A stretch of 64,000 bases of DNA from Propionicicella superfundia DSM 22317 (lineage in GTDB: Bacteria > Actinomycetota > Actinomycetes > Propionibacteriales > Propionibacteriaceae), in contig NZ_KE384020.1 in the NCBI RefSeq assembly GCF_000423465.1, positions 203,409-267,408 of the forward strand, given 5' to 3'. This document shows positions 35,048 through 38,502 of this stretch, piece by piece. Positions within the stretch are counted from its first letter, which is position 1, and every line of letters starts with the position of its first letter. The position numbers and the translations under genes were made by a program. The notes under the pieces are model-generated. The model made no database searches and was not told where the DNA came from. It saw nothing but the letters and a program-made list of their open reading frames with translations.

Positions 35048-35083
35048 TTGCCTGTACCGTCAAGATGCCATAACATCTTGACC
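35048..35083 (+). promoter_or_regulatory. Leaderless promoter with a palindromic operator
   Basis: TTGCCT (35048-35053), 17-bp spacer, TAACAT (35071-35076), then 7 nt to ATG 35084, which is a model leaderless promoter. A perfect 9-bp inverted repeat GTCAAGATG-N6-CATCTTGAC (35059-35082) covers the -10 and the predicted start, as a repressor site would. The likely binder is the TetR-family protein encoded two genes downstream, or the ArsR-type protein, whose own promoter has the same half-site. Confidence 0.7.
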
Positions 35084-35254
35084 ATGGAGTCAAATACTGT
35101 CGACCGGTTGGATCGGCCGACGGCGGAACCCGTCGTCGGCCGTGCCGTCGTGCCCGCACCTGAGGCCGCGGCGGGTGGTGGCGCGCCCCTGTTGGCCTTC
35201 GTGACCGCTGAGGATTCCCTCGGGGTGTGCGACCTGGACGGAGGCTGCCGCTGA
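35084..35254 (+). CDS. Small protein of unknown function with two C-terminal cysteines
   Basis: 56 residues, not recognised. It begins 7 nt after a good -10 element and its stop overlaps the next start by one base (TGATG), so it is very probably translated and coupled to the DsbA-like gene. The first 35 residues are polar to Ala/Pro/Gly-rich with no signal peptide or membrane helix; a short hydrophobic LLAFV follows, then an acidic end with Cys49 and Cys55 in CDLDGGC and a final Arg. It might be a substrate or partner of the downstream thiol oxidoreductase, a leader peptide sensing cysteinyl-tRNA, or a precursor of a modified peptide; the sequence does not decide. Confidence 0.6.
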   Translation: MESNTVDRLDRPTAEPVVGRAVVPAPEAAAGGGAPLLAFVTAEDSLGVCDLDGGCR

Positions 35255-35949
35255 TGACCGGCGGTGGGTTCGGACCGTCCGCCGACGGGCGGATCAGGAT
35301 CGACGTGTGGAGCGATGTGATGTGCCCGTTCTGCTACATGGGCGACGCCCTGCTGGAGCGTGCCCTGACGCAGTTCGAGCACCGTGACACGGTGGATGTG
35401 GAATACCACAGCTTCCTGCTGATGCCCGACCTGCCCGTGGGCTCGGCGGTCGACCTGGGCGAACTCCTGGCGTCCCGGCGCGGGATCCCCCGCGAGCAGG
35501 CGGAGGCGATGAACGCGCAGGTCGCCGAGCGTGGCAGGGAGATCGGCCTGGACTACCGCTTCGATCGCGCGGTCGCGACCAATACGCGCCGGGCGCACGA
35601 GCTGTCGCACTTCGCCGAACGCCAGGGGCGGCAGCACGAGATGATCCAGCGGCTCTTCCGCGCCTACTTCACCGAAGGTGCGAACGTCGGCGACCGTGAG
35701 GTGCTCACCGGACTGGCCGCGGAGGTCGGGCTGGACCCGGATGCCGCCGCGGCGGCCCTGGCGTCGGGCGAGTTCGCCGACGCGGTCGACGCCGACATCC
35801 GGCAGGCGCAGCAGCTCGGCATCACCGGGGTGCCGTTCTTCGTGTTCGAAGCCACCTATGCGATCTCCGGGGCCCAGCCGGTCGAGGTCTTCGCCCAGGC
35901 CCTCCAGCGGGTTCGGGACGACAAGACCTCGACGCCCGTTGCCCGATGA
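35254..35949 (+). CDS. DsbA-family oxidoreductase, FrnE type
   Basis: 231 residues. Thioredoxin-fold start RIDVWSDVMCPFCYMGD with the redox pair Cys24/Cys27 (CPFC), a helical insert, and the cis-Pro loop GITGVPFFVFEATYAISGAQ near the C-terminus. There is no signal peptide, so it acts in the cytoplasm, as FrnE-type (2-hydroxychromene-2-carboxylate isomerase/DsbA-like) proteins do. It is coupled to the small gene before it (TGATG) and to tetR after it (ATGA). A role in thiol or disulfide stress is plausible. Confidence 0.88.
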   Translation: MTGGGFGPSADGRIRIDVWSDVMCPFCYMGDALLERALTQFEHRDTVDVEYHSFLLMPDLPVGSAVDLGELLASRRGIPREQAEAMNAQVAERGREIGLDYRFDRAVATNTRRAHELSHFAERQGRQHEMIQRLFRAYFTEGANVGDREVLTGLAAEVGLDPDAAAAALASGEFADAVDADIRQAQQLGITGVPFFVFEATYAISGAQPVEVFAQALQRVRDDKTSTPVAR

Positions 35950-36533
35950 ACCCCGCGGACGAGACCGCGCCGCGGATGCGCTCCGATGCTCGCCGGAACA
36001 TGGAGCTGATCCGTGACGCCGCCTTGCAGGTCTTCGGCGAGGGAGGGCTGACCAGCCCCCTCGACGAGGTGGCCCGGGTCGCGGGCGTGAGCAAGGGCAC
36101 CATCTACAACCGCTACGGGGGTCGCGAGGGCCTCATCGACGCCGTCGTGGAGGATCTGGTCGCCGAGCGGATCGCAGGGCTCATGGCCGCAGCCGCGGCG
36201 CTCGACGATCCGGTCGAGCGGTTCGAGAGCTACCTGCGGCGGCTGTGGCTGCTGCAGTACGACGAGCCGGCCGCCAACGACGTGCTGCTGCGCACCGCGC
36301 CCGGCTCGCGGCGGCTGAGCGGGCTGTGCGAGAAGACCAGCACGCTGGCCGCAGAGCTTCTCGCCGGCGCGCAGGCGGCCGGAGGCGTCCGGAGCGACCT
36401 GACCATCGAGGACATCGCCTCGCTCATCTGGGAGCGCGGCATCATCGCCCGTGCCTGCGTCGAGCGACCCCGCGAGGCATACGAGCGGTCGCTCACCTTC
36501 ATCCTCGACGGTCTGCGCGCGCGGGCCGCGTGA
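35946..36533 (+). CDS. TetR family transcriptional regulator
   Basis: 195 residues, ATG overlapping the previous stop. The N-terminal helix-turn-helix (IRDAALQVFGEGG, then LDEVARVAGVSKGTIYNRY) is followed by a helical ligand-binding domain with one Cys-containing helix (LSGLCEKTSTLAAELL). Last gene of the three-gene operon; the natural candidate to bind the 35059-35082 palindrome and repress its own operon. Confidence 0.9.
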   Translation: MNPADETAPRMRSDARRNMELIRDAALQVFGEGGLTSPLDEVARVAGVSKGTIYNRYGGREGLIDAVVEDLVAERIAGLMAAAAALDDPVERFESYLRRLWLLQYDEPAANDVLLRTAPGSRRLSGLCEKTSTLAAELLAGAQAAGGVRSDLTIEDIASLIWERGIIARACVERPREAYERSLTFILDGLRARAA

Positions 36534-36566: not shown

Positions 36567-37235
36567 TCACGCCGCGACGTGCGGAGCAAGGGCCCGGACG
36601 CGGCGGGCGATGTCGTCGAATGCCGCCTCGTAGGCCTCGGGGGTGCCGATCGCGCCCGGGTTCGGGATCGACCAGTGCGTGCAGCGGGATGCGCCGAGTT
36701 CCTCGCGGGCGCGGTCGCAGACCGTGATGATGGCGGTGCCGTCGGTCAGCGTTCGCCCGACCGGCCTGGGGGTGTGTCCGGTGAGGTCCAGCCCGTGGCG
36801 CTCGGCGGCGGCGATCGCGGCCGGTGAGGTCCGTGCGGCCGGGTGGGTTCCGGCCGAGGTCGCCGGGATGGAACTGGTCACCGCCCAGAGTGCGGCGGCC
36901 AGCGGCGACCGGGCGGAGTTCCCCGTGCAGACGAACACGATCCGCCGCGCGGAGAGCCTCGGCTCGGGTACCAGGCCGGCGAGGGCGCCCGGGACGAGGC
37001 GAACGTAGCTGCGGCGGCGATCGCCCTCCGAGCGCGTGCGTGCGATCAGTCCCTCCGCCTCCAGGACGCCGAGATGGTGGGCGAGCAGGTTGGAGGCGAT
37101 GCCGAGCTGGGTCCGCAGTTCGCCGGGCGAACGGTCGCCGAGGGCCAGGAGTTCCACGACCCGCAGCCGTGCGGGGTCTCCCAGCGCCGCGTGACGTGCC
37201 GCGCGTCGCTCCAGGTCCGTTCGCTCATCGTTCAT
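36567..37235 (-). CDS. ArsR-type regulator fused to ArsC-type arsenate reductase / LMW phosphatase domain
   Basis: 222 residues from ATG 37235. Residues 5-85 are a winged-helix ArsR domain (ALGDPARLRVVELLALGD, LGIASNLLAHHLGVLEAEG). Residues 97-222 are an ArsC/LMW-PTP fold with the CX5R loop at Cys103 (FVCTGNSARSP) and ArsC-like Cys173 (ITVCDRAREE) and Cys185 before THWSIPNPG. The three cysteines fit a redox arsenate reductase, although the spacing of the last two (12 residues) is wider than in classical ArsC. One protein thus holds both sensor/repressor and enzyme. It is divergent from chrA and reads from a shared promoter region. Confidence 0.88.
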   Translation of the reverse strand: MNDERTDLERRAARHAALGDPARLRVVELLALGDRSPGELRTQLGIASNLLAHHLGVLEAEGLIARTRSEGDRRRSYVRLVPGALAGLVPEPRLSARRIVFVCTGNSARSPLAAALWAVTSSIPATSAGTHPAARTSPAAIAAAERHGLDLTGHTPRPVGRTLTDGTAIITVCDRAREELGASRCTHWSIPNPGAIGTPEAYEAAFDDIARRVRALAPHVAA

Positions 37236-37274
37236 TGTCTCAATCTTGACTGAGGCAATCGCAACGGTCAAGAT
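37234..37274. promoter_or_regulatory. Superimposed bidirectional promoter and ArsR-type operator
   Basis: Plus strand: TTGACT (37246-37251), 17 bp, CAAGAT (37269-37274), 7 nt, chrA ATG 37282. Minus strand: TTGACC (37271-37266), 17 bp, CAAGAT (37248-37243), 7 nt, arsR-arsC ATG 37235. Each -10 overlaps the -35 of the other direction, because ATCTTGAC and GTCAAGAT are inverted copies. A second inverted repeat, ATTGTCTCA-N8-TGAGGCAAT (37234-37259, one mismatch), overlaps the arsR-arsC start and the chrA -35 and is the likely ArsR operator. Both transcripts would be leaderless. Confidence 0.75.
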
Positions 37275-37281
37275 GCTGCTG

Positions 37282-38502
37282 ATGACCAGGTCCGCACAGC
37301 TCTCCGCTCCGCGCCACCATCCCGGCACGGTGCGCGATGTCTTCGTGGTGTTCCTGCGGCTCGGCGTGACCTCGTTCGGCGGTCCGGTCGCGCACCTGGG
37401 CTATTTCCGCGAGGCGTTCGTCGAGCGCCGCAGGTGGCTGAGCGATCGGGCCTACGCCGACCTCGTGGCGCTGTGCCAGTTCCTGCCCGGCCCGGCGTCG
37501 AGCCAGGTCGGGATGGCGATCGGCCTGCAGCGTGCCGGCCTCGGCGGGCTGCTGGCGGCATGGGCGGGGTTCACCCTTCCGTCGGCGATCCTGCTGGTCG
37601 CCCTCGCCTCCGGGGTGACAGCTCTCGGCGACCTGTCCGCCGCGGGGTGGATCCAGGGGCTGAAGGCGGCCGCGGTCGCGGTCGTCGCCCATGCCGTCGC
37701 AGGGATGGCGAGGACTCTGGCCCCGGATGCCCGACGAGCGACGATCGCCGTCGCCGGGATGGTCCTCGTGCTCCTCGTCCCCACCGCGCTCGCCCAGCTC
37801 GCCGTCCTGGCCGCGGCCGGGCTCGTCGGCGTGCTGTGGCTGCGCGCAGCGCCCGTCCCGGAGCCGGAGGCGGCGCCGTTCACCGTCCGGGTGCCGCGCT
37901 GGATCGCGGTCGCCGCGCTCGCCGCGTTCGCGGGGCTCCTGTTCGGCCTGCCGGCCCTCGCAGCGGTCACCGGCGGCCGCGCCGTGGGGCTGTTCGACAT
38001 CTTCTACCGGGCCGGGGCGCTGGTCTTCGGCGGAGGGCACGTCGTGCTGCCGCTGCTTCAAGCCGAGACCGTGGCCACCGGCCTGATCGGCCACGATGCC
38101 TTCCTCGCGGGCTACGGCGCCGCCCAGGCCGTCCCCGGCCCGCTGTTCGCGTTCGCCGCGTACCTCGGCGCCATCACGACGGGCTCGCCCTCCGGGCTGC
38201 TCGGGGCGGGCATCGCGCTGGTCGGGATCTTCCTGCCGGCAGGTCTGCTCGTGGTCGGGGCGCTGCCGTTCTGGGACCGGCTGCGGCACGCCCCGCTCAC
38301 CCGGCGGGCGCTCATGGGCGTCAACGCCGGGGTCGTGGGCATCCTCGCCGGTGCCCTCTACACGCCCGTGTTCACCGAGGGCATCACCTCCGTCCCCGCG
38401 CTCGCGATCGCCGCCGGTGCCTTCGTGGCCCTCACCTCTTGGAAGGCCCCGGCGTGGGCTGTCGTGATCGCCTCCGGGCTGATCGGCTGGGTCGTCCTGT
38501 GA
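37282..38502 (+). CDS. chrA: Chromate transporter ChrA, two-domain form
   Basis: 406 residues, about ten membrane helices in two homologous halves (long-chain CHR family). The N-terminal half has FLRLGVTSFGGPVAHLGYFR, then LCQFLPGPASSQVGMAIG; the C-terminal half has FYRAGALVFGGGHVVLPLLQ and AVPGPLFAFAAYLG. It exports chromate. ATG 37282 is used because it lies 7 nt after the predicted -10; ATG 37273 is an alternative. Its control by an ArsR-ArsC fusion protein is unusual for chrA. Confidence 0.92.
   Translation: MTRSAQLSAPRHHPGTVRDVFVVFLRLGVTSFGGPVAHLGYFREAFVERRRWLSDRAYADLVALCQFLPGPASSQVGMAIGLQRAGLGGLLAAWAGFTLPSAILLVALASGVTALGDLSAAGWIQGLKAAAVAVVAHAVAGMARTLAPDARRATIAVAGMVLVLLVPTALAQLAVLAAAGLVGVLWLRAAPVPEPEAAPFTVRVPRWIAVAALAAFAGLLFGLPALAAVTGGRAVGLFDIFYRAGALVFGGGHVVLPLLQAETVATGLIGHDAFLAGYGAAQAVPGPLFAFAAYLGAITTGSPSGLLGAGIALVGIFLPAGLLVVGALPFWDRLRHAPLTRRALMGVNAGVVGILAGALYTPVFTEGITSVPALAIAAGAFVALTSWKAPAWAVVIASGLIGWVVL

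Follow-up and report, generated by a model that had tools for sequence, protein, structure and literature searches.

Background

The closest described relative of the enzyme considered here is FrnE of Deinococcus radiodurans (drFrnE, DR_0659; PDB 5CNW, 5CO3, 5COH, 5XWH, 5CP1), whose CXXC active site is regenerated by the C-terminal CX4C tail of another molecule (PMC8945050). Every drFrnE structure shows a contact between the tail of one chain and the active site of a second, Cys244 pairs with Cys22 in a disulfide (reviewed in PMC8945050), and full turnover with thioredoxin reductase depends on the tail cysteines (PMC8945050). A Cys tail also ends Streptomyces coelicolor SCO1869 (PDB 3GL5), another member of the FrnE family, while FrnE of S. 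roseofulvus and of D. maricopensis have no C-terminal CXXXXC and have been suggested to rely on a different regeneration mechanism (PMC8945050).

In mycobacteria, leaderless upstream ORFs (uORFs) with a C-terminal cluster of Cys codons precede cysA2, and attenuation by such uORFs has been proposed, speculatively (PMC4633059). In Pseudomonas, allicin-resistance islands carry a tetR gene beside a frnE-like dsbA, which contributes to resistance against allicin, a disulfide stress (PMC7119367).

The window analysed here, a stretch of 64,000 nt taken as a whole, contains a 56-codon gene directly ahead of a frnE gene. The locus shares with drFrnE the core fold, the CPxC active site and a hydrophobic stretch followed by CX4-5C. 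In drFrnE, however, the tail is covalent, C-terminal and of the CX4C type, whereas the putative tail of the window is an upstream gene with CX5C, a TetR and a predicted leaderless promoter. The tail is also fused in SCO1869 and in actinobacterial FrnE ending in ...CGPDGC, unlike in the window, where FrnE resembles the S. roseofulvus and D. maricopensis proteins in having no CXXXXC at its C-terminus. The mycobacterial cysA2 uORFs are alike in that they too are leaderless small first genes, carry C-terminal Cys and are tied to the gene behind them, but they have clustered Cys codons and belong to cysteine-metabolism genes, whereas the peptide of the window carries a motif shared with FrnE tails. 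The Pseudomonas islands are similar in their pairing of tetR and frnE-like dsbA, and differ in being larger redox islands of a proteobacterium.

From comparative sequence analysis we consider it probable that FrnE is split at this locus, the small peptide being its redox tail, encoded as a separate leaderless gene and working in trans. A literature search of open papers turned up no description of a FrnE tail encoded by a gene of its own; FrnE enzymes with a regenerating Cys tail are already known, and it is the putative detached, leaderless, TetR-controlled tail gene that is new.

Organisation of the operon

The small gene (35084-35254, plus strand) encodes a putative trans-encoded FrnE redox tail peptide of 56 aa (P0001), with the translation MESNTVDRLDRPTAEPVVGRAVVPAPEAAAGGGAPLLAFVTAEDSLGVCDLDGGCR followed by a stop codon. 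Its two cysteines, Cys49 (35228-35230) and Cys55 (35246-35248), form a CX5C motif (35228-35248, plus) and were invariant in 17 peptides. The ending CDLDGGCR and the one-base overlap of the peptide stop TGA (35252-35254) with the frnE ATG (35254) are both present as the earlier note had described them. A GGAGG within the Asp-Gly-Gly codons (35240-35244, plus) is the likely Shine-Dalgarno sequence of frnE.

The promoter previously proposed, TTGCCT-17-TAACAT-7-ATG, was also found: a -35 hexamer TTGCCT (35048-35053), which is part of an upstream dyad, is followed after 17 nt by a -10 hexamer TAACAT (35071-35076, plus), 7 nt before the ATG at 35084, giving a predicted leaderless promoter. A TAnnnT element 7-8 nt ahead of the ATG was kept across orthologous operons, which, as far as promoter geometry goes, supports leaderless transcription.

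Downstream, frnE (P0002; 35254-35949, plus) encodes a DsbA-family protein with CPFC at 35323-35334 and no C-terminal Cys tail, and overlaps by four bases (ATGA) with tetR (35946-36533, plus), which encodes TetR_N and SbtR-like C-terminal domains and is the probable autorepressor of the operon. The suggestion that these genes form a compact operon with tetR is supported by conservation. Since the C-terminal GVCxxDGxC, the TGATG overlap and TAnnnT-7/8-ATG all recur in orthologous operons across Actinomycetota, the layout is not a matter of chance. The operator-like dyads, the GGAGG within the motif codons and the occurrence of the motif fused to other FrnE C-termini had escaped earlier attention.

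Inside the peptide gene, a 13-nt inverted repeat (35114-35142, 92%, 3-nt loop) could form an mRNA hairpin. Beyond tetR, an ORF on the minus strand (36567-37328) encodes an ArsR/SmtB-type HTH fused to a low-molecular-weight phosphatase/arsenate-reductase-like domain; it is divergent from a membrane-transporter-like ORF (37246-38502, plus; ChrA-like by eye) and overlaps its 5' end.

The FrnE enzyme and its fused tails

P0002 was assigned to DsbA/FrnE by PF01323 (E = 3.7e-45) and by FrnE sequences in PDB (5cnw/5co3, E = 6.7e-55, 45% identity over 219 aligned positions), and shared 38% identity with SCO1869 in a fold comparison. Its structure model (pLDDT 93.5) superimposed on drFrnE with an rmsd of about 1.8 A, and the top Foldseek hits were FrnE (TM about 0.90). 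The chain stops after helix 210-226 (...RVRDDKTSTPVAR) without a C-terminal Cys, so that the CX4-5C tail, an optional feature found in many members of the family and not one that defines it, is absent.

Tails with the same motif were fused to the C-terminus of FrnE in Bacteroidota, Bacillota and many Actinomycetota, for instance in Corynebacterium gallinarum (...SPFEVIEGQTCSVDGTCN), Weeksellaceae (...GASCDVDGNCN), Mucilaginibacter (...GQVCGPDGNC) and actinobacteria (...CGPDGC), and FrnE often carried the fused motif where a separate ORF was absent. FrnE proteins accompanied by a peptide ended about 15-25 residues sooner, with no cysteine in that region. The drFrnE tail (...LTMLGQDAPAEGCEDGQCAVP) could be aligned with a fused homologue and resembled the separate peptides of Kineosporia (LTMLESADESAVCGIDGVC), Nonomuraea (LVVLGSDTAPVCTDGVC) and the window (LLAFVTAEDSLGVCDLDGGC). 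A short tail query against PDB sequences gave no match, and in a fused-tail model (L121) the tail itself was predicted with only moderate confidence (pLDDT about 72).

Relatives of the small peptide

Used as the sole query, P0001 retrieved no relative in 85,000 genomes nor in 58 relatives, and a four-row peptide profile run over 395 genomes reliably recovered the window alone. Because the peptide is too short and variable, relatives had to be sought via frnE, and were gathered by FrnE protein searches, one of them a large scan across about 85,000 species genomes. Three FrnE orthologues from the same family (L024, L025 and L026; 56-65% identity) were preceded by an ORF ending in GVC-x5-C-x-stop with the same TGATG overlap. 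The large scan added Promicromonospora, Diaminobutyricibacter, Streptomyces himastatinicus, Corynebacterium, Actinoplanes/Paractinoplanes, Catenuloplanes, Kineosporia, Leucobacter and Nonomuraea. Homologues beside FrnE genes of other actinomycetes, which the earlier note had recommended looking for, thus exist: peptide ORFs lie upstream of frnE at about 25 loci.

The N-terminal parts of these peptides consist of unrelated Pro/Ala/Glu-rich sequence, and their C-termini follow the consensus P-[FL]-x-x-[LV]-...-G-V-C-x-x-D-G-x-C-x. The peptide shows the pattern of a redox tail, a hydrophobic stretch with CX4-5C about 8-11 residues further on, near the C-terminus. The substitution ratio, likewise put forward as a check, fell below 1, but not strongly: pN/pS was 0.70-0.81 over the last 18 codons and about 0.4-0.55 over the core 9 codons.

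Two single loci departed from the common layout. In Leucobacter chinensis (L067 3900-4000), GVCSTDGVCTV ends a 226-codon histidine-phosphatase-like ORF directly before a tail-less frnE. In Actinoplanes palleronii (L069 2493-4001), the tail gene and operator lie about 1.4 kb upstream of frnE-tetR and the TGATG overlap is lost; an insertion apparently parts the tail gene from frnE, and a TnpB-like ORF is nearby. A plasmid search recovered distant FrnE only (<60% identity, all predicted non-mobilizable), with no sign that the operon has spread by plasmid.

The peptide could be functionless if its gene were a cysteine-responsive attenuator, a leaderless uORF whose C-terminal Cys codons would respond to Cys-tRNA charging and thereby adjust translation of frnE. 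The precedent upstream of cysA2 (PMC4633059) speaks for this reading, offered in the earlier note as an alternative, as do the promoter geometry and the overlap with the next gene. However, the two Cys codons are isolated and six positions apart, not clustered or consecutive; conservation is not limited to Cys but takes in Gly, Val, Asp/Glu-Gly and the hydrophobic stretch, features common to fused tails; and the motif also occurs fused to FrnE or downstream of frnE, where attenuation of frnE is impossible, and at the end of the Leucobacter phosphatase-like ORF. We regard an attenuator as very unlikely.

A RiPP-like precursor or dedicated substrate, which FrnE would mature into a disulfide-looped product acting elsewhere, is rated marginally lower still. 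A variable N-terminus and a conserved Cys-bearing C-terminus do have the look of leader and core, next to a thiol-disulfide enzyme. Against this, Pfam and NCBIfam scans of 17 peptides gave no match (one chance hit, E = 0.076) and none to a RiPP family; the neighbourhoods share no gene family apart from FrnE and TetR, and in particular no recurring transporter, protease or modification enzyme; and in other lineages the supposed core belongs to the FrnE chain itself. Of the roles first imagined for the peptide, that of precursor found neither a matching family nor matching neighbours; that of partner of the enzyme is right in kind, most probably in the form of the missing C-terminal redox tail.

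Comparison of separate peptides with fused tails

A profile HMM was trained solely on 48 fused tails. As the peptides had been chosen by Cys pattern, Cys-matched controls were used, namely 1488 CX4-5C-bearing segments from the same DNA. The fused-tail HMM separated both upstream peptides (AUC 0.988, p = 1e-16) and downstream ORFs (AUC 0.986, p = 2e-12) from the controls, and the reciprocal test gave an AUC of 0.968 (p = 5e-29). Without the Cys-matched restriction, 23 of the 31 best of about 15,900 ORFs were separate tail peptides; an apparent background match (L069, plus strand, 2493) turned out to be the Actinoplanes palleronii peptide. Single comparisons were not significant (best E = 0.002), as expected of a shared motif that spans about 20 residues.

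Separate tail ORFs and fused tails were close to mutually exclusive: a separate tail ORF adjoined just 1 of 48 tailed FrnE genes vs 42 of 62 tail-less ones (Fisher p = 7e-14). Among 29 loci retrieved later, once the rule had been fixed, a tail ORF was found at 0 of 17 tailed and 3 of 12 tail-less genes (p = 0.06), all three positives being of the downstream type with a 4-base overlap. A further fetch yielded more downstream cases (L174, L176, L178, L180) and no upstream ones; since these later fetches gave downstream cases only, the upstream type is the rarer. Against the split reading, about 20 of the 62 tail-less FrnE genes had no tail ORF within the 500 nt searched, so that some lineages can dispense with the tail.

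The Gly codon of the motif was GGA or GGG in 23 of 23 upstream peptides, vs GGC or GGT in 16 of 17 fused actinobacterial tails (p = 3e-10). This codon usage indicates that the Gly is retained for the peptide and that its wobble base serves the predicted Shine-Dalgarno sequence of frnE. Conservation of DGG merely for the Shine-Dalgarno sequence was considered and rejected: fused tails without an overlapping gene behind them keep D/E-G, with another wobble base.

The strongest competing explanation is that a generic dithiol peptide arose by convergence. The small protein would then be a separate redox or metal-binding cofactor or a regulator, e.g. of TetR or FrnE, with a convergent CX5C that does not act at the FrnE tail site. 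The shortness of the motif, the unrelated N-terminal parts and the non-significant single comparisons are compatible with this, CX5C could bind metal, and a tetR gene is part of the operon. Mutual exclusivity with the fused tail argues against it, as does the sharing of the hydrophobic stretch and CX4-5C beyond the Cys pattern, and 7 genomes have peptide and frnE but no tetR. Convergence is accordingly judged unlikely, if less so than an attenuator or a precursor. We favour identity of the peptide with the FrnE tail because the match to fused tails is at the level of homology, the tail is absent from FrnE of the window, and separate and fused tails exclude each other.

Gene arrangement and phylogeny of FrnE

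Separate tail ORFs lay either upstream of frnE, as in the window, or downstream, starting inside the frnE stop codon (ATGA/GTGA overlap). The downstream arrangement was seen in Agromyces, Cellulomonas, Actinotalea, several genomes of the window's family and at L053. The latter locus (G000:C11:12234-12902, minus) is the second FrnE of the window genome, with its tail on a downstream ORF with a 4-base overlap (...GPFAGLMPFGPAADAPVCGPAGCDP... / ...GPFAGLMPFGPAADAPVCGPAGCDPDPRPPTQR), so that one genome carries both split arrangements.

A quick, unrooted tree of the FrnE core, with the tail columns left out, recovered a strongly supported group of 26 rows, 24 of them upstream-type with peptide; L126 (Nonomuraea) stood apart. 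Downstream types fell into other groups of the tree, and once within the upstream group (L064). This scatter of arrangements implies that the tail changed place several times. L064 is from the alphaproteobacterium Neomegalonema perideroedes, whose FrnE lies within the actinobacterial upstream-type clade and has a tail-like ORF downstream (KIGGDSPEAGLCVDGFCALPPQ), which suggests horizontal transfer together with a changed gene order.

Operator-like sequences and TetR

A perfect 9-bp inverted repeat, GTCAAGATG-CCATAA-CATCTTGAC, covers the -10 region (35059-35082); it is the sole zero-mismatch copy in the genome, with one other place at 3 mismatches. This repeat is part of a pair of operator-like dyads, TTGCC-N6-GTCAA (35048-35063), which holds the -35 hexamer and has a like copy (TTGNC-N6-GTCAA) at about -36 to -38 in many tetR-bearing orthologous loci, and TTGAC-N6-GTCAA (35078-35093), a predicted operator at position -6 that spans the start codon. 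As this dyad covers the start codon, the M-x-S start common to the peptides can be read as imposed by the DNA.

A tetR orthologue followed frnE in 18 peptide-bearing loci. TTGAC-N6-GTCAA stood exactly at -6 in 16 of these 18, vs 0 of the 7 tetR-less loci (p = 7e-5). In the window genome the dyad had one further match (a reversed control pattern matched 7 places), and so few genome-wide matches point to regulation that is probably local. With tetR inside the operon and a dyad over its promoter, both sequence features of TetR autoregulation are present, and the operon is probably autorepressed by its own TetR.

Conserved TetR cysteines were considered as a redox sensor and kept as no more than a lead: a Cys near the C-terminus (RAC) is present in most orthologues and replaced by S in L054, and the other Cys is not conserved. 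By analogy with the Pseudomonas allicin case (PMC7119367), disulfide stress is suggested as the inducer class of this TetR.

Discussion

If the peptide is the detached FrnE tail, as we think probable, the drFrnE precedent provides a route by which it may work: a tail that acts between molecules can also act as a separate peptide. By comparison with Deinococcus FrnE, the peptide would dock with its C-terminal segment on the FrnE surface, where Cys55, backed by Cys49, would attack Cys24 of the CPFC disulfide and leave the enzyme reduced again. Electrons would come from a cellular thiol system, e.g. thioredoxin reductase or mycothiol, and the variable Pro/Ala/Glu-rich N-terminal part would be a disordered carrier. 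Translation of frnE is presumably coupled to that of the peptide via the TGATG overlap and the Shine-Dalgarno sequence internal to the motif codons, so that both parts would be made together. TetR would repress from the two dyads (TTGNC-N6-GTCAA), one lying over transcription start and start codon, and would let go of the operon under thiol or disulfide stress.

A bolder and much more tentative extension, which we would not yet expect to hold, is that FrnE is a modular two-part enzyme with a portable tail (fused, behind or in front), the free peptide being a diffusible, separately dosed redox carrier for several enzyme molecules or other partners, a dithiol shuttle under its own TetR. The occurrence of the Leucobacter tail on a phosphatase-like ORF is the reason for supposing such a range of partners.

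Under the split reading, a class of conserved but unannotated small genes in actinobacteria, with no counterpart in Pfam or NCBIfam, acquires a function and a mechanism that can be tested. The same reading accounts for the possible regeneration of many seemingly tail-less FrnE, which PMC8945050 did not settle. With peptide and enzyme as two naturally separate components, each could be altered independently and the role of the tail measured. The split FrnE would also be a compact case in which a catalytic appendage has repeatedly become detached from its enzyme, on either side of the gene, while translational coupling still ties the two parts to each other.
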